A stretch of DNA of 64,000 nt, from the NCBI GenBank assembly GCA_900604495.1, contig UWOR01000002.1, positions 124,001-188,000 of the forward strand, read 5' to 3'. This stretch comes from Desulfovibrio sp. Marseille-P6017. Lineage in GTDB: Bacteria; Bacillota_A; Clostridia; Peptostreptococcales; Peptostreptococcaceae. Below the pieces are notes generated by a model. It did no database searches, was not told where the DNA came from, and saw only the letters and a program-made list of their open reading frames with translations. Below, one piece after another: positions 5,353 through 36,337 of the stretch. Position numbers and translations under genes: made by a program. Numbering within the stretch: position 1 is the stretch's first letter; every line of letters starts with the position of its first letter.

Positions 5353-6471
5353 TTAAGATGTCAAATCAGTTTCTTTTTTTATAAATCTATTAGCATACAT
5401 TAAAAGTACACCAGTAATAGGCACTGATAATAATATACCAATAAATCCTGTATATTTACTAGCAAATGTAACAGCTAATATTGTAAATATAGGAGGAACA
5501 CCAACTTGTTTTCCTACAAAGAAAGGCTCAAGTACAGCACTTTCTAATTGTTGAACTATTATCATTACTATTAACACAACTATAGCTTTATCAAGAGAGA
5601 AGAATAAGTTAACAACTACAGCTACCACTGTACCGATTATAGGTCCAAAGAATGGTATCATATTAGTAATACCAGCAATTATACCTAAGAATAAAGCATA
5701 TTTAGATCCTACAATAGAAAGAATGATTATACATATAACTGAATAAATGGCTGAATCAGTGGCTTTTGCAACTATATATACTCCTATATTTTTATCTAAA
5801 ACATTAACAAATTCTTTTACGACTAAGTAATACTTTTTCAATAATTTTTTAGATAAAATATTTATTACATTTATACATTTTTCTTTAGATAATAGTAAAT
5901 AAACAGATATAACTATTCCTAAAAATACATTAAATACATAAGAGACTATGGTACTAGTAGTGTTTATTATCATTTCGCTAAGTATACTAGCTGTTGATGT
6001 AGATAGTGGAAGCAATATATTTGTTATAAAGTCATTTATTTGAAGCTTTATTTCTTGGTTATTTATATTAAACTTATAATTTGTAGATAGATTATTTATA
6101 AATTCTTGTATACTATCAACACCTTGAGGTATATAAGCATAAATATCATTTATATTTGATTTTATAACTGGAATTATAAATAGCCAAGAAAATATTATTA
6201 CTGCTATTACAAAACCATAAACTATAGCTAATGATATTGGTCTTTTAAGTTTAAATTTATTTTCTAAAATTTTTAAAGGTTGATTAAGTATATATGCTAT
6301 TACAAAACCTATAAAAAATGGAGCAAGTAAATCACTAATATTAGATAAATTTATTGCTATAAAATTCGATATTGAAGAAAAATGTTTTAAAATTAGTATT
6401 CCTATAAAGATAAGTATAATTGGAATTACGTATTTTATAGATTTATATAATTCATCTTTTATTTTGTTCAT
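5353..6471 (-). CDS. AI-2E family transporter (UPF0118/YtvI-like)
   Basis: 372 residues, normal length for this family, with about eight membrane helices: two near 15-60, one near 70-90, then a large loop, one near 160-190, and a C-terminal bundle from 230 on. The conserved GxxNxIPFFGPIIG motif is present as GITNMIPFFGPIIGTVVA. Family members export diverse solutes or ions; no substrate is fixed by sequence. The 5' leader (6494-6640) is a yybP-ykoY type manganese riboswitch with a terminator, so this copy is probably controlled by Mn2+. A GGAAGG ribosome binding site lies directly upstream. It is a single-gene transcript. Confidence 0.85.
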   Translation of the reverse strand: MNKIKDELYKSIKYVIPIILIFIGILILKHFSSISNFIAINLSNISDLLAPFFIGFVIAYILNQPLKILENKFKLKRPISLAIVYGFVIAVIIFSWLFIIPVIKSNINDIYAYIPQGVDSIQEFINNLSTNYKFNINNQEIKLQINDFITNILLPLSTSTASILSEMIINTTSTIVSYVFNVFLGIVISVYLLLSKEKCINVINILSKKLLKKYYLVVKEFVNVLDKNIGVYIVAKATDSAIYSVICIIILSIVGSKYALFLGIIAGITNMIPFFGPIIGTVVAVVVNLFFSLDKAIVVLIVMIIVQQLESAVLEPFFVGKQVGVPPIFTILAVTFASKYTGFIGILLSVPITGVLLMYANRFIKKETDLTS

Positions 6472-6493
6472 ATTTTAATACCTTCCTTATTAA

Positions 6494-6550
6494 AAATAAA
6501 AAACCTCTAAAGATAAATTCATTTAATGAATGAAAATATCTTTAAAGGTC
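6494..6550 (-). terminator. Riboswitch-controlled attenuator
   Basis: Read on the minus strand, CCTTTAAAGATA pairs with TATCTTTAGAGG to make a long hairpin followed by TTTTTTATTTTT. Its 5' arm shares CCTTTAA with the 3' strand of riboswitch helix P1, so the two folds exclude each other. Manganese binding should stabilise P1 and allow readthrough into the transporter gene. Confidence 0.75.
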
Positions 6551-6640
6551 TTGCAAACAAGATTTCTTGCTAATCAACCGGGATCTTAATCCGAAATGAC
6601 GATTGATTATCACATTTGTGAAAGCTACTCCCCTTTAAGG
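6542..6640 (-). promoter_or_regulatory. yybP-ykoY (manganese) riboswitch aptamer
   Basis: Minus-strand reading begins TTAAAGGGGAGTAGC and ends GCAAGACCTTTAA, the two most conserved ends of this class, which pair as P1. Between them are CGTCATTTCGG and CCGGTTGATTAGC, matching the conserved internal loops of the Mn2+-sensing aptamer. It lies in the leader of the AI-2E-family gene, 70 bases before its start. Confidence 0.85.
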
Positions 6641-6660
6641 AACTCAATTATATAGATTAA

Positions 6661-6689
6661 ATTATATTATATGTTATGTTTAATATCAA
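6661..6689 (-). promoter_or_regulatory. Sigma-A type promoter for the riboswitch transcript
   Basis: On the minus strand TTGATA (6684-6689) and TATAAT (6661-6666) are spaced by 17 bases, just upstream of the aptamer. Confidence 0.7.
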
Positions 6690-6831
6690 CAATTATTATT
6701 TATTATAGATAAAATAAATATATAAATTAAAATAAAACAACTGTTTAATGGTTAATATATTAATGAGTTTGAGATGAGGGGTATATAGATTTAGAGGTCT
6801 ATAAGTTTATTTTGATATAAGGAGGATGGTT

Positions 6832-7728
6832 ATGAGCAATAAAAAGATTTTTTTGTCAGAATTAAAAGATGGAAATATAAAAGTATCTCTTATGGTAATG
6901 AAGAAATTATACAAAGATGGAAACAAAGTTGTATATTTATTAAGTGATAAAAGTGGATACATAAATGGAAAAGTAGCTCAAAAAATCAAATTAGAGCCAG
7001 GTCAAGTTATAGAAATAGAAGGAAATAAAGACTATACAATAGATATTACAAATTTAAAGTTAATTGAAAATTATGAACTAGAGGATTATCTTGTAAGTGT
7101 AAAAAGACCTATAGAAGATATAATGAATGATATAGAAGAATTAACTAAAATATATATAACTTCACCACAAGGCAAAATGTTAAATGATTATTTTTTTAAG
7201 GATGAAAAATTCTTAGACAAGTTCAAAAAAGGTATAGGTGGTGTATCTATGCATCATAATTATATCGGTGGACTTGCAGAGCATACTCTTAATGTAATGT
7301 ATTTAACAAGTGTACTTTGTGATAGATATGATTGTAGACATAAGGAAATAGCAGTTCTTAGTGCAAAGCTACATGATATAGGAAAGATTTATGAGTTAGA
7401 TTATAACGGTCCTTTTAAATATACTTTAGAGGGAGAATTAGAAGGTCATATTGTTATAGGCATTCAAATGATAGATAGAGCAATTATTGATTTAGATATT
7501 CCATTTAGTGATGATTTTATTAGAAGAATTAAGGGGTGTATAGTACAACACCATGGTAAACTTGAATATGGTTCTCCAAAATCTTGTAATATGGAGGAAT
7601 CATTTATATTAAATTATGCAGATACTGTTGATGCTACTATGAATAAGATAGAACAATTAAAGGAAAATACAAGAGAAAATACATGGTCATCATATGATAG
7701 AAGGATAGAAACTAAGCTTTATCTTTAA
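6832..7728 (+). CDS. yhaM: 3'-5' exoribonuclease YhaM family (OB fold + HD domain)
   Basis: 298 residues from ATG 6832. An earlier ATG at 6826 overlaps the GGAGG ribosome binding site itself, so 6832 (6-base spacing) is preferred. Residues 1-85 resemble an OB-type nucleic-acid binding fold (SGYINGKVAQ, PGQVIEIEG). The HD hydrolase domain has H-x-HNYIGGLAEHTLNV and LHDIGK, with the late QHHGKLEYGSP histidines and a final NYADTVDA segment. YhaM trims RNA from the 3' end and degrades single-stranded DNA, in the cytoplasm. It appears to be transcribed alone. Confidence 0.9.
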   Translation: MSNKKIFLSELKDGNIKVSLMVMKKLYKDGNKVVYLLSDKSGYINGKVAQKIKLEPGQVIEIEGNKDYTIDITNLKLIENYELEDYLVSVKRPIEDIMNDIEELTKIYITSPQGKMLNDYFFKDEKFLDKFKKGIGGVSMHHNYIGGLAEHTLNVMYLTSVLCDRYDCRHKEIAVLSAKLHDIGKIYELDYNGPFKYTLEGELEGHIVIGIQMIDRAIIDLDIPFSDDFIRRIKGCIVQHHGKLEYGSPKSCNMEESFILNYADTVDATMNKIEQLKENTRENTWSSYDRRIETKLYL

Positions 7729-28755: not shown

Positions 28756-29402
28756 ATGAGACTACTAGACATTGTATTTTATTTATTAAGAAGTAGTTCT
28801 AAAGTTACAATTAAGGAACTATCTAAGGTTTTTAATGTATCTACAAAAACTATAAGAAGAGATTTAGACAAATTATCTATAATAGGAATACCTATAATAA
28901 CATATAGAGGTGTAAATGGAGGTGTAGAGATTGATAAAAACTATATAATAGCAAAGCATGTATTAAAATATAGTGATTATGAATCTTTAATATTTGCACT
29001 TTATATAGGTGAAAGTATCAGCAAAAACATAAGCGAATCTTTTTTAATAGATAAGTTTAAGTCTGTAGATAAAAGTAAGTGTACTAAAATTTTAGATAAT
29101 ATTAAAGATAGATTTATAATAGATTTATTTGAAGATAAGTTTGATACTAAAACTGAAATATGTAAAGATATAGATATAGCACTAGATAATAAATCTTTTA
29201 TAGAATTAGAAATAAATGATGAAAAATTTGAAGTATATCCAATTTCTTATATATTAAGGAAGGATGGATTATGTTTATATTGTTATAAGAATATATTGTT
29301 ATTAATATTAACAAAATATCTAATGTTATAATATGTAATAAAATTTATGATGGTAATATAATTAGTTACAATGAAAATAAAGATAAAATAAAATTTATTT
29401 AA
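28756..29402 (+). pseudogene. HTH-WYL family regulator, frameshifted
   Basis: The frame from ATG 28756 gives an HTH_11/DeoR-like domain (VTIKELSKVFNVSTKTIRRDLDKL, residues 19-42) and a WYL-like half (EKFEVYPISYILRKDGLCLY) but ends abnormally at 29331. From about 29298 the -1 frame continues smoothly as VININKISNVIICNKIYDGN to a TAA at 29400-29402, which is the expected end of the WYL strand region. A one-base deletion near 29293-29298 explains this. Even repaired, about 215 residues is shorter than typical 300-residue WYL proteins. It lies immediately upstream of the agr promoter. Confidence 0.7.
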
Positions 29403-29404
29403 AT

Positions 29405-29441
29405 AAAAAGTACTCATATATTATCTATGAGTACTTTTTAT
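29405..29441 (+). terminator. Terminator before the agr promoter
   Basis: AAAAAGTACTCATA / TATGAGTACTTTTTA. Confidence 0.88.
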
Positions 29442-29472
29442 TTTGAAAAAATTAAACTTAATATATTTGCGT

Positions 29473-29503
29473 GACAGTAAAACTTATTAAAATGACGATT
29501 AAT
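29473..29503 (+). promoter_or_regulatory. LytTR (AgrA-type) direct repeat
   Basis: GACAGTAAA at 29473 and GACGATTAA at 29494 are 21 bases apart, the two-turn spacing of AgrA/LytTR binding repeats (consensus near ACAGTTAAG, 12-base gap). The second half ends 8 bases before the -35 box of the agr promoter. Confidence 0.6.
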
Positions 29504-29510
29504 GTCAAAG

Positions 29511-29539
29511 TTTACAAAATAGTCTAAAAATGGTAGAAT
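29511..29539 (+). promoter_or_regulatory. agr promoter
   Basis: TTTACA (29511-29516), 17-base spacer, TAGAAT (29534-29539). Confidence 0.7.
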
Positions 29540-29607
29540 ATATAATAATAATTAGCATCTAATTAAATATTAGAATTAGTGCTAATTAATATATTAGGAG
29601 ATATAGT

Positions 29608-30924
29608 ATGTTAGAAAAATTAAATATAGAATTATGGGATATTATTAATATAGCCACAGGGACTGTAGACTGGATTATTTTCTTTTTATCAATTGACTCA
29701 TTTGGAAAGAGAAAATTATCTAATATAAAATATATACTTGGAATTATGTTCATATTTATACTTATGGGATCTATCAATGTATCTGGTATTAATCCAAATA
29801 CAAAGATTATCATATGTATGATAGTAGGAGGTATATTCTATTCTTTATTTTATAAAGATAAAATATATAAATGTGTATTAGTTACACTATTATTTTGGTT
29901 AGGGTTAATTCTTGCTGAAGGGTTAGCTGTAAGTATAGTAGTAATGATGAATGAACTAAATAATATTAACATAATTTTAAATGGTAATTTATTTAGGATA
30001 GAAGCTATTATAGTATCAAAAATATTTTTATCTATAACTCTTATAATCTTTAAGTATTTTAAATTATCATTAGACTTTAAACCAAAAGATATGATACTAA
30101 TAAGCTTGCCATTATTATCAAATATAGTTAGCTTATTGTTAATTTTTGGGTATAACTTAAAAAGTGATGGAATTAGTACGGAACATATTATTATGTTAGT
30201 ATTTACAACAGCACTTATAGTATTATCAAGTATAGTACTTTTAATAGTAATAAGAAAAATTATAGAAGATGATAAAGTTAAATTAGAGTATGAGCTTATA
30301 AATGAAAGAATAAAAACAAATCACAAAAACTATGAAAATATATATGATATATATGATAGATTAAAATTTGTTTATCATGATTTAAAAAATCATATGATCT
30401 GTATGAAGGGGTATGACACAAAAGAAGAAATAATATCTTACATAAATAATTTAGAAAATCAAATAGGTGATTTTGAGAAAGTTAAAAATACAGGAAATAA
30501 AACATTAGATATAATTTTAGGCGAAAAAATACATCTTTGTAAAAAACATAATATTAAGTTTGAAGATAATATAAATATATCTAAGTTAGGTTTTATTAAA
30601 GATATTGATATATGTGCTATATTTGCAAATGCAATAGATAATGCAATAGAAGCATGTGTTAATATAGATAATGAAATAGAAAAAAGGATAGAGGTAAAAG
30701 CCACATATATTAATGGTTTTTCAATAATAAAATTTATAAATTCTAAAGTGAATGATATTAGAATTATTGATGAACGTATAAAAACTAGTAAAGATGATGA
30801 AAAGATACATGGGATAGGTCTTGCTAGTATTGAATATATAGTTGATAAATATGATGGTGAAGTAGTTGTTAATTACTCAGATAATGAATTTATATTAAAA
30901 ATAATGATACCAATAGGTGGATAG
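29608..30924 (+). CDS. agrC: AgrC-type sensor histidine kinase (GHKL)
   Basis: 438 residues. Six or seven membrane helices occupy residues 14-215, the peptide-sensing part; a linker helix leads to FVYHDLKNHM with the phospho-acceptor His257. The GHKL ATPase follows: NAIDNAIEAC (N box) and IHGIGLASIEYIV (G box). It should bind the AgrD-derived cyclic peptide from outside and phosphorylate an AgrA-type regulator. No response regulator is encoded in the window. It is first gene of the operon agrC-agrD-agrB, with GGAGA ribosome binding site. Confidence 0.92.
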   Translation: MLEKLNIELWDIINIATGTVDWIIFFLSIDSFGKRKLSNIKYILGIMFIFILMGSINVSGINPNTKIIICMIVGGIFYSLFYKDKIYKCVLVTLLFWLGLILAEGLAVSIVVMMNELNNINIILNGNLFRIEAIIVSKIFLSITLIIFKYFKLSLDFKPKDMILISLPLLSNIVSLLLIFGYNLKSDGISTEHIIMLVFTTALIVLSSIVLLIVIRKIIEDDKVKLEYELINERIKTNHKNYENIYDIYDRLKFVYHDLKNHMICMKGYDTKEEIISYINNLENQIGDFEKVKNTGNKTLDIILGEKIHLCKKHNIKFEDNINISKLGFIKDIDICAIFANAIDNAIEACVNIDNEIEKRIEVKATYINGFSIIKFINSKVNDIRIIDERIKTSKDDEKIHGIGLASIEYIVDKYDGEVVVNYSDNEFILKIMIPIGG

Positions 30925-30936
30925 GAGAGTAGACTA

Positions 30937-31077
30937 ATGAAAAAAATAGCATTAAAGTTATTAAAAAATATGTCAGCATTAAGTTTAGGGATAGCTGTAT
31001 TATCAGCAAATAGTGCAAGTTCATGGATAGCACATCAAGCAAAAGAACCTCAAGCTTTAAATAAACTAAAGAAATAA
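30937..31077 (+). CDS. agrD: AgrD autoinducer peptide precursor with Ser at the ring position
   Basis: 46 residues, 12 bases after agrC, with a TAGGAGAG ribosome binding site. The amphipathic basic leader (MKKIALKLLKNMSALSLG) is followed by the core VLSANSASSWIAHQ and the acidic/proline tail AKEPQALNKLKK, the three parts of every AgrD. In clostridial AgrD proteins the core normally reads ANS-x-Cys; here the Cys position is Ser28 (or Ser29). AgrB would then form a lactone instead of a thiolactone, with a predicted ring Ser-Ser-Trp-Ile-Ala ending before His33. The peptide boundaries are inferred. Confidence 0.9.
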   Translation: MKKIALKLLKNMSALSLGIAVLSANSASSWIAHQAKEPQALNKLKK

Positions 31078-31087
31078 TATAAGAGAT

Positions 31088-31120
31088 AAGCCTCTCCTTA
31101 ATTATAAGGAGAGGCTTTAT
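31088..31120 (+). terminator. Strong hairpin between agrD and agrB
   Basis: A perfect 13-base stem (AAGCCTCTCCTTA / TAAGGAGAGGCTT) with an ATTA loop but only TTTAT after it. It may be a partial terminator or a stabiliser that keeps AgrD mRNA in excess over AgrB. Confidence 0.7.
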
Positions 31121-31135
31121 GAATGAGGAGGAAAT

Positions 31136-31708
31136 ATGTTTAAAAGTTTATCATATAAGTTTGCTGATATGCTTAGTAAAAATGATATAATAGAGGACGA
31201 AGATTTTGAAATATATAGGTATGGTTTTGAAACATTGATTTATTTTATAGTAAATATATCAGTAGCATTATTTATAGGTGCTATTTTTGATAGATTTATA
31301 CATACAATTATCTTTTTAACTTGTTATTGCAGTATAAGACAATTTACTGGTGGGTATCATGCTAGAAATTATACAGAGTGTACGTTGACATTTGTTGTTA
31401 TTTATACCATAACTATTTTTATGGCTAATAACATAAATATTAATAAATATAAGTATTTATTAATATTATTTATGATTTTTAGTATGTATATAATTTATAA
31501 GATTGCTCCTCAAGAGCATAGAAATAAACCACTTAGCAAGGAAGAAAAAGAAAAGTATAAAAGAGTTGTTATGAAAATAGTTGGACTTATAAGTATTATA
31601 TTTATAGCTAGTATTTTATTTAATATTTTTAAAGAATATATTATATATTCTTTACTTGCTATAATTTGGACTTGTATATTATTACTATTAGGAATTTATA
31701 CAAAATAA
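31136..31708 (+). CDS. agrB: AgrB-type peptide-processing membrane protease
   Basis: 190 residues, with four to six membrane helices. The catalytic pair is His75 in QFTGGYHARNYTEC and Cys82 in the same motif, matching His77/Cys84 of staphylococcal AgrB. The protein removes the AgrD tail and closes the ring, and takes part in export. Its GAGGAGG ribosome binding site lies just after the agrD hairpin. Confidence 0.93.
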   Translation: MFKSLSYKFADMLSKNDIIEDEDFEIYRYGFETLIYFIVNISVALFIGAIFDRFIHTIIFLTCYCSIRQFTGGYHARNYTECTLTFVVIYTITIFMANNININKYKYLLILFMIFSMYIIYKIAPQEHRNKPLSKEEKEKYKRVVMKIVGLISIIFIASILFNIFKEYIIYSLLAIIWTCILLLLGIYTK

Positions 31709-31715
31709 ATATTAA

Positions 31716-31757
31716 AAAAAAGATATTAACATGAAACTATGTTAATATCTTTTTATT
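31716..31757 (+). terminator. Terminator of the agr operon
   Basis: AAAGATATTAACAT / ATGTTAATATCTTT stem and T tail. Confidence 0.88.
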
Positions 31758-31899
31758 TCAATAAAAGTATTTTAGAATAGATAATAAAATTTTTTTACAT
31801 ATATTTAAGAAATATATTAATTTTATACTTTATGTTATAATATAAAATATAAGAATACGGGAAATAGTAACTATATTAGACACTTAGAAAGGGGGATTA

Positions 31900-33411
31900 T
31901 TGTTGCAAATTAAATTGAAAAATAATGATAAAAATTATTTTTATAGATTTATAGGAATTGAAGATTTTTTTAAGTATAATGATGAATTAAAAACACTTCA
32001 ATCAAAATGTAGTGAACTAGAAAATGCATGTTTAATATTTGATAATGAAATTGTATTAAGTGGAGAAATGGAACTTATACAATATATATATAATGAATTA
32101 CAAACTATGAATATAAATGATTTGATTAATCAAGATATAACTATATTTGATGATTTTCAAATTAACAATAAGTTTTTAGAAGCATTACAATATGCAGTTA
32201 ATTTAGGCATGAAAAATGAAAATTTTTTTAATGATAATATAAGAAATAACTTTATAACAAAACTTATAGTTTGGACATATATGTACGTTAAAAATATTGA
32301 TTTTAATAAGGGCTATAATCCTCTATGTATTTATTACGGAAAAATAGAAAGACATGAAATCTACTTTTTAATGTTACTTTATAAGATGAATTTTGATATT
32401 TTATATATAAACCCTTTAAAAGAAGAATATTTCGAAGAAATAGATAAAGATAAATTGAGTATATGTAAAAAAAGTATGAAAATAGACTCAATAGAATCTT
32501 TTAATGAAAGATGTAAAAAGGGAAAAATAATAGAGAATATAGAGACTATCACAAAACAAATTCAAAAAGAAATACATGAAGAGCTTTTTGTAAATACAGG
32601 AATGTTTAAACCATGGCAGTTTAGAAATGGATTTACTAAAAGTGTACTTTTAGACACTATAGTAGAAGATATAGAGATTTACTTTAATGAGCCAGCTAAG
32701 TTAAGAGATGGATTTGATGTTGATGGAAATATAGTTAAAGTTCCAACTTTCTTTTATAAAATAGATGGTGCGTATGCTGATAGAAGTAAATATGTTAAAT
32801 TAGTATCTAAATGCTTAGAACCATATCCTATTTCATCTTCAAATAAATTATTCTTTGAGAATGGAAAAATATCATATGATGAAGGCATAAGTGATGAGAT
32901 GTTTCAACTTATGTTTTGTCAACTAAGTGATGGTACTTTTGATATAGGAAATTAAAAATTAAATATCTATAAATTTCAAAAATACAATGAAGTAGTACAA
33001 AACTTTTTACTTAATAAATTTAATGAAGTAATAAAAAGGAATGATTTATTTGTAAATAAATTAGATAAAGATAGTTGCTTAAAACTACTTGTATTAGTTC
33101 TTAATTTGAACCATGATATTATAAGAATAATAGATAATTTTGATTTTGTTGGAGATATTCCTAAAATAGTTATATTTTTAAATAAAGAAGATACTATAAG
33201 TGAAAATATGATTATGTTACTTGGATATCTTCATAATATAGGAATTGATATTATAATATTCAATCCTTCTGGAATGTGTAATTTAAGTAATGTAATAAGA
33301 AGTGATAAATTTAACCAAGTAAGATTAGATAAAATAAGCTATGACACAACATACAATAAGTTAGTCTTTAGTTTAATAAAACCAAGTGTATTTACAAAGC
33401 TATTTAAATAA
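31900..33411 (+). pseudogene. yceG: YceG family protein (Ter-associated), interrupted by TAA
   Basis: A 503-residue frame from TTG 31900 to TAA 33409-33411 is broken by one in-frame TAA at 32953-32955 (DIGN-stop-KLNIYKF). Both sides match in frame the YceG-type protein found next to TerD and TelA genes in Bacillus (537 residues there). The first part ends in the YceG segment MFKPWQFRNG and FFYKIDGAYADRSKY; the second has IPKIVIFLNKED, FNPSGMCNLSNVI. It appears to be a component of the Ter stress module of unknown activity. Residues 1-351 may still be made. It is first gene of the ter operon. Confidence 0.75.
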
Positions 33412-33435
33412 AAGTAACAATATAGGAGATATATC

Positions 33436-34509
33436 ATGAATGAATTTAACAGTGAAGTAGATATAATAGAACAAAGTGATATTTATAAACAAAATTTAAG
33501 ACAGTTACCAGAAGTTCAAAATTTAACTAATGAAATAGAAGTACAAAATTTAAATTCTATAATTCAATTTGGACAAAAAGCAAGTGAAAATATATCAAAA
33601 ATATCTGATGAATTATTATCATCTATGAAAGAAGTGAAAGCTGAGGAAGCAGGAGAAATGCTTGTAAGTCTTACTAAAATTATGGACAAGTTTGATATAA
33701 AAGAACTTGAAAATCAAAAGCAATCAAGTTTAATGACAAAATTGTTTAAAAAGGCAGGCGATACTATAGCTAAGTTATTCCAAAAATATGATACTATGGG
33801 ATATGAAATAGAAAAAGTTTATGTACTTCTTAAAAGGTATGAAAATGAAATAAAAGAATCAAATGCAAAGCTTAAAAAGCTATATGATGGAAACTTAGAA
33901 CATTATAAGCAGTTAGAGAAATACATTGTTGCTGGTGAATTAGCAGCTGAAGAAGTTGATATGTATATAAATCAATTTACAAATGACAACACTATGAATC
34001 CTGAAGAAAGATATATGATGATTCAAAAACTTGAAGTTTGTAAGGAAATGCTACAACAACGTTTATATGATTTAAAAGTAGCTGAAAATATAGCTATACA
34101 AGCAGCGCCGATGATTCAGACAATGCAAATGTCAAACTTTAATTTATTAAGAAAGATAAATACATCTTTTATAATAACATTGCCAATATTTAAGCAATGT
34201 TTAGCACAAGCTATAATTTTAAAAAGACAAGAAATACAAGCAAAATCTTTAAAACAATTAGATGATAAAACTAATGAGCTTATAATGAGAAATGCACAAT
34301 CTACTGCTAGACAATCTGTAGATATAGCTAGAATGAGTTCAGGAAGTGTTGTAGCAATTGAAACATTAGAAAAATCCTACCAAACAATAATAAAAGGTAT
34401 AGAAGATACTAAAGCAATACAAAATGAAAATAAAGCAAGAAGAAATGAAAATACTATAAAATTAGAGCAAATGAAGGCTAGTATGAAAAGAAATATACCA
34501 AGCGCATAA
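33436..34509 (+). CDS. telA: TelA/YceH family toxic anion resistance protein
   Basis: 357 residues, almost entirely alpha-helical and coiled coil, as in TelA (PF05816). The start is MNEFNSEVDIIEQSD; a characteristic region is LKRYENEIKESNAKLKKLY and the central NFNLLRKINTSFIITLPIFK stretch, followed by ARQSVDIARMSSGSV. TelA proteins are linked to resistance to tellurite, peptide antibiotics and envelope stress. It is the second gene of the ter operon, 24 bases after yceG, with TAGGAGA ribosome binding site. A cytoplasmic or membrane-associated location is likely. Confidence 0.88.
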   Translation: MNEFNSEVDIIEQSDIYKQNLRQLPEVQNLTNEIEVQNLNSIIQFGQKASENISKISDELLSSMKEVKAEEAGEMLVSLTKIMDKFDIKELENQKQSSLMTKLFKKAGDTIAKLFQKYDTMGYEIEKVYVLLKRYENEIKESNAKLKKLYDGNLEHYKQLEKYIVAGELAAEEVDMYINQFTNDNTMNPEERYMMIQKLEVCKEMLQQRLYDLKVAENIAIQAAPMIQTMQMSNFNLLRKINTSFIITLPIFKQCLAQAIILKRQEIQAKSLKQLDDKTNELIMRNAQSTARQSVDIARMSSGSVVAIETLEKSYQTIIKGIEDTKAIQNENKARRNENTIKLEQMKASMKRNIPSA

Positions 34510-34527
34510 TATAAAGGGGGTAAATAA

Positions 34528-35127
34528 ATGGCTATAAATTTAGGAATAAATAAGAACACTGTAAATGCATTAAACTTACAAAAAAATGATATATTAGATT
34601 TAACTAAAAAGAATCCAGGTCTTGAAAATGTAATTCTAGGAGCTGGATGGGATGTAGCAAGTATAGGTCAAGATTTTGATATAGATATAGCAGCATTTTT
34701 ATTAGATGCAAGTAATAAAGTTACTCAAGTTCCACAAGATGTAATATTTTTCAATAATAAGTTTGGAGATGGAATTTATCTAGAAGGAGATAATAGAACT
34801 GGTACAGGTGATGGTGATGATGAAAGAATACAAATTGATTTAAGTAAAATAAGAAGTGATATTCAAAAAATAGTATTCATAGTTACTATACACAATGCAC
34901 AAGAAAAAAGACAAACTTTCGGTATGGTAAATAATTCTTATGTAAGATTATTAGATGCTAAAAATAATGAAAAAGAAATCTGTAGATTTAACTTAAAAGA
35001 AAATGGATCAACTGTTACTTCAGTTATATTCGCAGAGTTATACAAAGATGGTTATGAATGGTATTTCAAAGCTTTAGGTGATGGTAAAATAGCAGACTTA
35101 AATGGTATGCTAGGTTTATATATGTAA
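34528..35127 (+). CDS. terD: TerD family protein (first copy)
   Basis: 199 residues. Features of the TerD beta-sandwich: GAGWDVASIGQDFDIDIAAFLLDA, the acidic Ca2+-binding DNRTGTGDGDDERI, and the late FGMVNNSYVRLLD. TerD proteins bind calcium and act in stress-associated complexes with TelA and ATP-grasp or YceG-type partners. The protein is closely similar to the third copy (35741-36337), so one arose by duplication. Start ATG 34528 after AAAGGGGG, 18 bases after telA. Confidence 0.92.
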   Translation: MAINLGINKNTVNALNLQKNDILDLTKKNPGLENVILGAGWDVASIGQDFDIDIAAFLLDASNKVTQVPQDVIFFNNKFGDGIYLEGDNRTGTGDGDDERIQIDLSKIRSDIQKIVFIVTIHNAQEKRQTFGMVNNSYVRLLDAKNNEKEICRFNLKENGSTVTSVIFAELYKDGYEWYFKALGDGKIADLNGMLGLYM

Positions 35128-35155
35128 TAAAAAAATACAACTAAGGGGAAATCTT

Positions 35156-35737
35156 ATGAATTTATTAAACTTACAAAAAAATGATATATTAGATTTAACT
35201 AAAAAAGATCCTTCATTAAACAATATAGTATTAGCAGCAGGATGGGATGTAGTTAAAAGAGGATTCTTTAATTTTGGTGCACCAGATATGGACCTAGATT
35301 TATCAGCAATATTATTAGGTGAAGATGGAAGAATAATAGGCGAAGAAGGCATAATATACTTTAGAAATCAAAGAGGCCCAGGTATATTTTTACATAATGA
35401 CAATAGAACAGGAGAAGGACATGGTGATGATGAAAAAATATCTATAACATTAAATAGTTTACCTTCTAACTGTAAAAAGGTTATTTTCTCAGTAAATATA
35501 TATCAAGGAAAAGAAAGAAGACAAGATTTTTCAAAGGTAAGAAACGCCTATGTTAGAGTTCTTAATAGCGATAAAGGTGATAGTGAGATATGTAGATATA
35601 ACTTAAGTGAAGATGGTGGAAAAGCCACATCACTTATATTTGCAGAATTAGAAAAAATAGGTTCTGACTGGAATTTTAAAGCAGTTGGACAATTATTAGA
35701 GGGTAACTTAACTACATTAATACAAAAATATCAATAA
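35156..35737 (+). CDS. TerD family protein (second, divergent copy)
   Basis: 193 residues. Same fold as its neighbours, with the start NLLNLQKNDILDLTKKD, AAGWDVVKRGFF and the acidic loop DNRTGEGHGDDEKI. It differs by an insertion (FNFGAPDMDLDLSAILLGEDG) and a distinct C-terminus. One Asp of the GDGDDE loop is His here, so metal affinity may differ. It lies between the two near-identical TerD copies, with an AAGGGG ribosome binding site. Confidence 0.9.
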   Translation: MNLLNLQKNDILDLTKKDPSLNNIVLAAGWDVVKRGFFNFGAPDMDLDLSAILLGEDGRIIGEEGIIYFRNQRGPGIFLHNDNRTGEGHGDDEKISITLNSLPSNCKKVIFSVNIYQGKERRQDFSKVRNAYVRVLNSDKGDSEICRYNLSEDGGKATSLIFAELEKIGSDWNFKAVGQLLEGNLTTLIQKYQ

Positions 35738-35740
35738 GAG

Positions 35741-36337
35741 GTGAATAATATGGGAATAAATTTAGGTGGAACACCACAAATATTAAACTTACAAAAAAAT
35801 GAAATATTAGATTTAACAAAGAGAAATCCAGGACTTAAAAAAGTTACTCTAGGAGCTGGATGGGATATATCAAATGGTGGAGTTGATTTTGATATAGATA
35901 TAGCAGCATTTTTATTAGATGCAAATAATAAATTTAATACTGTATCAAATGTAATATTTTTCAATAATAAACAAGGGCAAGGAATAGCTTTATCAGGAGA
36001 TAATAGAACTGGTGCTGGAGATGGTGATGATGAAACTATTTCAATAGACTTAGATAGTATAAATCCAAGTATACAAAAAATAGTTTTCGTAGTTACAATA
36101 CATGAAGCTCAATCTAGAAGACAAACATTCGGGATGGTAAATAATTCTTATGTAAGACTATTAGATACTGTAAATAATGATAGAGAACTTTGTAGATTTA
36201 ACTTAAAATCAGATGGATCAACTGCTACATCAGTTATATTTGCAGAGCTTTATAGAGATATGGGAGAATGGCAATTTAAAGCTCTTGGAGAAGGGAAAAT
36301 AGCTGACCTTAATGGGGTATTAGCTTTATATAACTAA
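35741..36337 (+). CDS. TerD family protein (third copy)
   Basis: 198 residues, closely related to the first copy (VDFDIDIAAFLLDA, DNRTGAGDGDDETI, FGMVNNSYVRLLD). It begins only 3 bases after the second TerD stop, with a GAGGTG ribosome binding site. As last gene of the operon it is followed by a terminator. The set of three TerD proteins plus TelA and YceG matches the Bacillus yceCDEGH-type tellurite/stress module but lacks the TerC membrane partner. Confidence 0.92.
   Translation: MNNMGINLGGTPQILNLQKNEILDLTKRNPGLKKVTLGAGWDISNGGVDFDIDIAAFLLDANNKFNTVSNVIFFNNKQGQGIALSGDNRTGAGDGDDETISIDLDSINPSIQKIVFVVTIHEAQSRRQTFGMVNNSYVRLLDTVNNDRELCRFNLKSDGSTATSVIFAELYRDMGEWQFKALGEGKIADLNGVLALYN

Follow-up and report, generated by a model that had tools for sequence, protein, structure and literature searches.

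How an agr system is to be understood when its sensor, signal precursor and processing enzyme genes stand side by side with no agrA adjoining them is the question raised by the window (the whole 64,000-nucleotide stretch of DNA that was analysed). Our comparison with related loci points to a likely answer, namely an agr2-type locus, from the clade of Clostridioides difficile agr2, in which agrA has been deleted and the tandem operator of the clade is missing, and from which the signal is still sent, the response having been lost or now depending on a non-cognate LytTR regulator.

Gene content and clade of the locus

The three genes form an operon-like row on the forward strand, with all frames intact. 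The first, agrC (29608–30924), encodes a sensor histidine kinase of 438 aa that matches PF14501 (GHKL domain, E 1.3e-24) and, besides this domain, has full-length homology to the agrC products of complete agr loci. It is followed by agrD (30937–31077), a 46-aa signal precursor that passes the NCBIfam model TIGR04223 (quorum_AgrD; 42.8 bits, cut-off 19), has 36 homologues and adjoins agrB (31136–31708), the 190-aa product of which belongs to the AgrD-processing membrane endopeptidases (PF04647, E 6.2e-45; 153 bits against a cut-off of 23). The AgrB motif GGYHARNYTEC carries a His and a Cys that are spaced like the AgrB catalytic pair; a PDB sequence search with AgrB as the query returned no match. 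The gene order C-D-B, as described in an earlier note on this DNA, is thus borne out by both the ORFs and the domain matches. Between agrD and agrB, a hairpin with a 13-pair stem is predicted on the forward strand (31088–31117). Such hairpins are predicted in all five loci that were compared (the window, L001, L070, L071 and L069), with different stem sequences and raw folding energies of −21.0, −17.6, −14.9, −17.1 and −8.5 kcal/mol (the weakest, −8.5, in L069), and the element is perhaps a retained attenuator or processing element.

The nearest loci, from Romboutsia sedimentorum VA2 (L001) and from L069, L070 and L071, are all arranged as agrA-C-D-B (with a broken agrB in L071), and in all four agrA runs into the 5′ end of agrC. 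Using the C. difficile primer sequences printed in PMC7497831, we found among 14 tested loci that the agr2R primers fitted L071 best (0 and 2 mismatches), the agr2M primers L070 (0 and 0 mismatches) and the agr1 primers the Cys-type locus L055 (0 and 0 mismatches). These primer matches, together with the arrangement of the nearest loci, identify the window locus as a member of the agr2 clade. In the AgrB tree, a 99/100 branch sets the agr1 rows apart from the window and its relatives L001, L070 and L069, with the long-branch rows L043 and L048 placed on the window’s side. The window therefore has the tree placement and the C-D-B order of an agr2-clade locus, while agrA is missing from the head of the operon and so is the upstream 21-bp tandem operator, the latter being a feature that comes from this analysis and not from the published definition.

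C. difficile agr2 is given as agrACDB with an AgrD of 46 aa in the account of Martin et al. 2013 (PMC3754575). The agr2 loci of C. difficile (R20291, agr2M types) are like the window locus in the C-D-B order, the 46-aa AgrD and the Ser ring, and the window AgrC stands at 69% to those of L070 and L071, the carriers of the agr2M and agr2R primer sites. The differences are that the ring is printed as [SSWVA] there and reads [SSWIA] here, and that agrA, present in C. difficile, is apparently deleted from the window save for its tail, with the tandem operator absent. The R. sedimentorum VA2 locus has the same predicted AgrD core as the window (SANSASSWIAHQAKEPQ), with AgrC at 74% and AgrB at 66–68%; unlike the window locus, it is a complete A-C-D-B operon and lies on a plasmid-like contig with terminal repeats. 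Its agrB is followed by ABC-transporter-like and radical-SAM-like genes (recognised by eye), so that agr may control a putative ribosomal peptide cluster there. Two copies of this locus were seen on a 79,571-base contig (G001:C5), 64,536 bases apart, a spacing that a circular plasmid of ~64.5 kb would give if assembled with overlapping ends.

Other agr types differ from the window locus in various ways. The agr1-type loci (e.g., L055) have a Cys ring, an agrD that comes after agrB and a place on another branch of the AgrB tree. According to published accounts, C. difficile agr1 (agrDB) and the agr3 of phage phiCDHM1 (agrC, B, D) are likewise without agrA.

We considered whether the window locus rides on a mobile or viral element and set this aside, with no phage DNA match and no related viral contig for either AgrB or AgrC. 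AgrB matches were present in 13 phage records, all below 60% identity and the phiCDHM1 AgrB not among them, and plasmid DNA matches to the window came from 10 records (nine Paraclostridium, one Clostridioides), with 60–80% identity at the best places. Just upstream of the locus lie a gene for an HTH (HTH_11/DeoR-like) regulator of 191 aa (28756–29331), whose C-terminus looks cut short by eye, and a terminator-like hairpin at ~29410–29436, also seen by eye. Directly downstream, positions 31900–36337 hold YceG-domain, TelA and TerD-like (by eye) stress genes. The bacterium is most likely a Romboutsia, since an L-fucose isomerase encoded in the window shares 100% identity with that of Romboutsia sp. 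1001713B170207_170306_H8, the highest value for Paraclostridium versions being 96%.

The trace of agrA ahead of agrC

The absence of a local agrA, which the earlier note had pointed out, held up: no agrA adjoins the locus, and no LytTR protein was found among the 99 ORFs of 60 aa or more in the window using 11 LytTR queries and a profile made from them (the profile having no positive control). What remains is the 3′ tail of the gene, which makes this a case of deletion. On the forward strand, positions 29567–29614 read ILELVLINILGDIVC and overlap the agrC start; they encode ..INILGDIVC*, and the agrA genes of relatives end in ..NILGDIVC* or near it. When the 36 nt that precede the agrC ATG are compared with the agrA tails of seven relatives, 30 of the 36 agree with one of them, and no other place in the window does as well (127930 positions on both strands; the next best is 25). 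In length the remnant falls far short of an AgrA, and its reading frame is not that of agrC; the AgrA LytTR response regulator is represented in the operon by its 3′ end only. The presence of an agrA tail ahead of agrC implies an ancestral A-C-D-B operon that has since lost agrA, and the gene appears to have been removed in place with its tail left behind. The ribosome-binding site of agrC (AGGAGA, 29596–29601) lies inside the remnant, which may be the reason why the tail survived.

A probable tandem duplicate of the remnant precedes it on the same strand (29550–29573, AATTAGCATCTAATTAAATATTAG); by eye it is like 29574–29600, and it was recovered by local alignment to the L070 agrA tail. The same stretch contains two AATTAG-N-CTAATT palindromes, at 29550–29564 and 29574–29587, where 0.2 are expected; two or more occurred in 4 of 100 shuffles and in 2 of 139 fetched loci. 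The stretch also folds as RNA (z −2.45, with 3 of 200 shuffles equally good). We dropped the pair as a candidate repressor operator, in our judgement, as each copy is similar to the agrA tail and the two have the look of a tandem duplication of it.

In five of eight relatives (L001, L070, L071, L132 and L133), a tandem 21-bp unit near GTAATATTTAAAGTCCAAAAA lies 128–135 bp before the agrA start codon. The operator matrix was built from copies chosen by eye from these same five loci, which makes leave-one-out scoring the fairer measure; the scores so obtained range from 25 to 42. Scores before agrA fell below 5 in the other three relatives (L069, L134 and L089). The window has no such operator, its best scores anywhere in the 64 kb being 9.9–11.7, and on these scores a LytTR operator inherited from agrA was rejected. 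As the operator is also missing in three of the eight relatives, its absence alone is no proof of deletion.

Erosion of other kinds was found elsewhere in the clade, and agrA was lost only in the window among the eroded loci compared (the window, G057, G029, G027, G028 and G005). G057 (L132) has an intact orphan agr2-clade agrA (6220–6936) that keeps its tandem operator, with agrC reduced to a 41-aa piece, and is a near-reciprocal of the loss in the window. G029, G027 and G028 have agrA-agrC only, and G005, which is C. difficile-like by its primer matches, has a broken agrB. Searches with tblastn did not find agrD or agrB in the stretches fetched around the G057, G029, G027 and G028 loci, and no close agrB was found in these four genomes. 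The pairs of G027 and G028 (L134 and L135) and one in a Paraclostridium bifermentans plasmid (L089, with a ParA gene close by) are distant agr2-clade agrA-agrC pairs with no agrD/agrB found nearby, and these are possible listeners that carry no signal gene.

Serine rings in the agr2 clade and in the family

The window AgrD reads ..SANSA-SSWIA-HQAKEPQ.., with Ser28 in place of the ring Cys of the agr1-type AgrD used for comparison (..SANST-CPWII-HQPKVP..). The serine that had been noted at the ring position (ANSA-SSWIA-HQ) is confirmed by this alignment with agr1-type AgrDs, from which the ring codons S-S-W-I-A (Ser28–Ala32) are predicted at 31018–31032 on the forward strand. It had also been stated that clostridial relatives have Cys here, which is right for agr1-type loci (..STCPWIIHQ..) and wrong for the direct relatives: of 37 rows (the window AgrD and its 36 homologues), 35 have Ser at this position, the exceptions being P0018 (Arg) and P0035 (Lys). 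The commonest rings in these rows are SSWVA (9/37) and SSWIA (8/37), and the window ring is identical to that of L070, a Clostridioides agr2M-type locus.

The signal of the window is probably a lactone-type AIP, as far as can be read from the ring residue. This proposal of the earlier note is well supported by inference, yet a Ser-type signal is typical of the agr2 clade and has already been predicted in print for C. difficile agr2. The C. difficile agr2 signal is printed as NSA[SSWVA] in a 2025 primer (PMC12312760), from which the window ring differs by one residue (I for V), and the Table 1 section of a 2013 review gives it as ‘NSA SWVA’ (PMC3673130), the coloured ring residue being missing from the text version. 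Since the agr2 Ser ring is in print, that of the window is not new; our literature search found no paper naming both ‘Romboutsia’ and ‘AgrD’, and two in which ‘AgrD’ occurs together with ‘Peptostreptococcaceae’. The serine is ordinary for the agr2 clade, and the novelty is the scarred loss of agrA. In published descriptions, the AIP of S. pseudintermedius and the Fsr signal GBAP of E. faecalis are Ser-based lactones instead of thiolactones, as predicted for the window; both come from other genera and are likened to the window signal by description, with a GBAP ring of nine residues.

At the level of the family, AgrB relatives were present in 47 of 71 genomes. Our hand-compiled table of 39 Peptostreptococcaceae agr loci, each with an identifiable AgrD and one of them the window locus, has 17 Ser and 22 Cys rings. 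It omits L071 (agrB broken; AgrD Ser), the distant L044–L047 (AgrDs C, C, C and probably S), those in which AgrD was not found (L039/L088, L040–L042, L067 and L068), the G014:C11 match and lower-scoring AgrB matches. On the AgrB tree, which has long branches, the distribution of Ser and Cys needs six changes, at least five of them forced by well-supported branches, where shuffles average 13. Two loci with the order C-B-D, L065 (G012) and L066 (G011), have the Ser rings TTSVWYI and TTSLWHV and no agrA found adjoining, a layout that resembles the agr3 of phiCDHM1 as published. The repeated interchange of Ser and Cys rings within one family means that ‘thiolactone’ is not to be assumed for Peptostreptococcaceae signals.

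Proposed sending without a dedicated response

Under the reading that we favour, AgrB would cut AgrD after Ala32, as expected from its family, and the acyl-enzyme would then be attacked by Ser28, closing a lactone of five residues, [SSWIA], for which the S. pseudintermedius signal and GBAP are precedents. AgrC would still be able to bind this lactone. The agrCDB genes would be transcribed from the remaining upstream promoter, and with AgrA and its operator gone the locus would have no positive feedback of its own. The cell would then send the signal, its response being lost or passing through a non-cognate LytTR regulator.

We hold it possible, though with distinctly less confidence, that the locus is decaying, with agrA lost first, the rest following and no present function. 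The piecemeal losses in the clade (agrA with a truncated agrC in G057, agrA-agrC in G029, G027 and G028, and the broken agrB in G005) fit such a course, and so does the window AgrC branch, which is somewhat long in the AgrC tree (0.16, against paths of 0.09 and 0.13 to sister rows) and could reflect early decay. This has to be set against three frames, an AgrB His/Cys pair and an agrD-agrB hairpin that are all intact, as well as P0038, the AgrC of another assembly that bears the label ‘uncultured Clostridium sp.’, which is one residue apart from that of the window. Pairwise agrC dN/dS is not raised either, being 0.23–0.33 between the window and its relatives and 0.25–0.31 among three relatives, a measure that is blind to selection in the time since the agrA deletion.

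The earlier note had seen a fully functional system here, with a LytTR regulator from another part of the genome that is phosphorylated by AgrC, binds a repeat upstream and drives agrCDB, and this we regard as unlikely. The repeat in question, LytTR-like with 21-base spacing, does exist on the forward strand (29474–29503, ACAGTAAAA(N12)ACGATTAAT) and lies directly before a promoter-like sequence. Its match of 13/18 is to the staphylococcal AgrA consensus and is marginal, with 91 of 2000 dinucleotide shuffles equally good; with the operator matrix of the agr2-clade AgrA it scores −9.6. Being marginal and unlike the operator of the cognate clade, the doubtful repeat is unusable for inferring a regulator, and the contention that an AgrA-type regulator must be encoded elsewhere does not follow. 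The promoter fared in a similarly mixed way: a sigma-70-like sequence, TTTACA-17-TAGAAT with TG before the −10, is there on the forward strand (29511–29539, 10/12 in a consensus scan), but such matches are no commoner within 29250–32000 than in shuffles (29 found, 31.3 expected). A partner of AgrC encoded in trans is possible in itself, given intact agrC, agrD and agrB and plentiful LytTR domains (16 PF04397 matches in G001); the full AgrA query was matched in 70 of 71 genomes, although its receiver domain will also pick up response regulators of other kinds. G057, with its intact orphan agr2-clade agrA, is 77% identical to the window in one stretch of DNA and 84% in another. In G051, the nearest of the genomes compared as judged from one stretch (91%), no close match to AgrA is present (best E 7e-15).

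An assembly error as the cause of the missing agrA is very improbable, for although the partial tandem duplication of its tail (29550–29587) might be a sign of a faulty join, the agrA sequence at the junction is diverged and not identical (30/36), a promoter-like sequence precedes the new arrangement, and the clade operator is absent as well.

The locus is thus best seen as a natural agr2-type system from which the regulator has been removed while the signal and sensor genes are intact, and the molecular scar shows that the complete operon came first. Together with its relatives that have suffered other losses, it offers natural separations of sending from responding. The signal groups of staphylococcal agr have diversified, in contrast to the near-identical peptide predicted here across genera, which makes cross-genus signalling directly testable. 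A far-reaching and rather improbable extension is that a commensal, probably of the gut, has discarded its own response regulator and still makes and senses a conserved inter-genus signal, in which case the strain would be a sender that triggers or quenches the agr2 responses of neighbouring Peptostreptococcaceae without responding itself.
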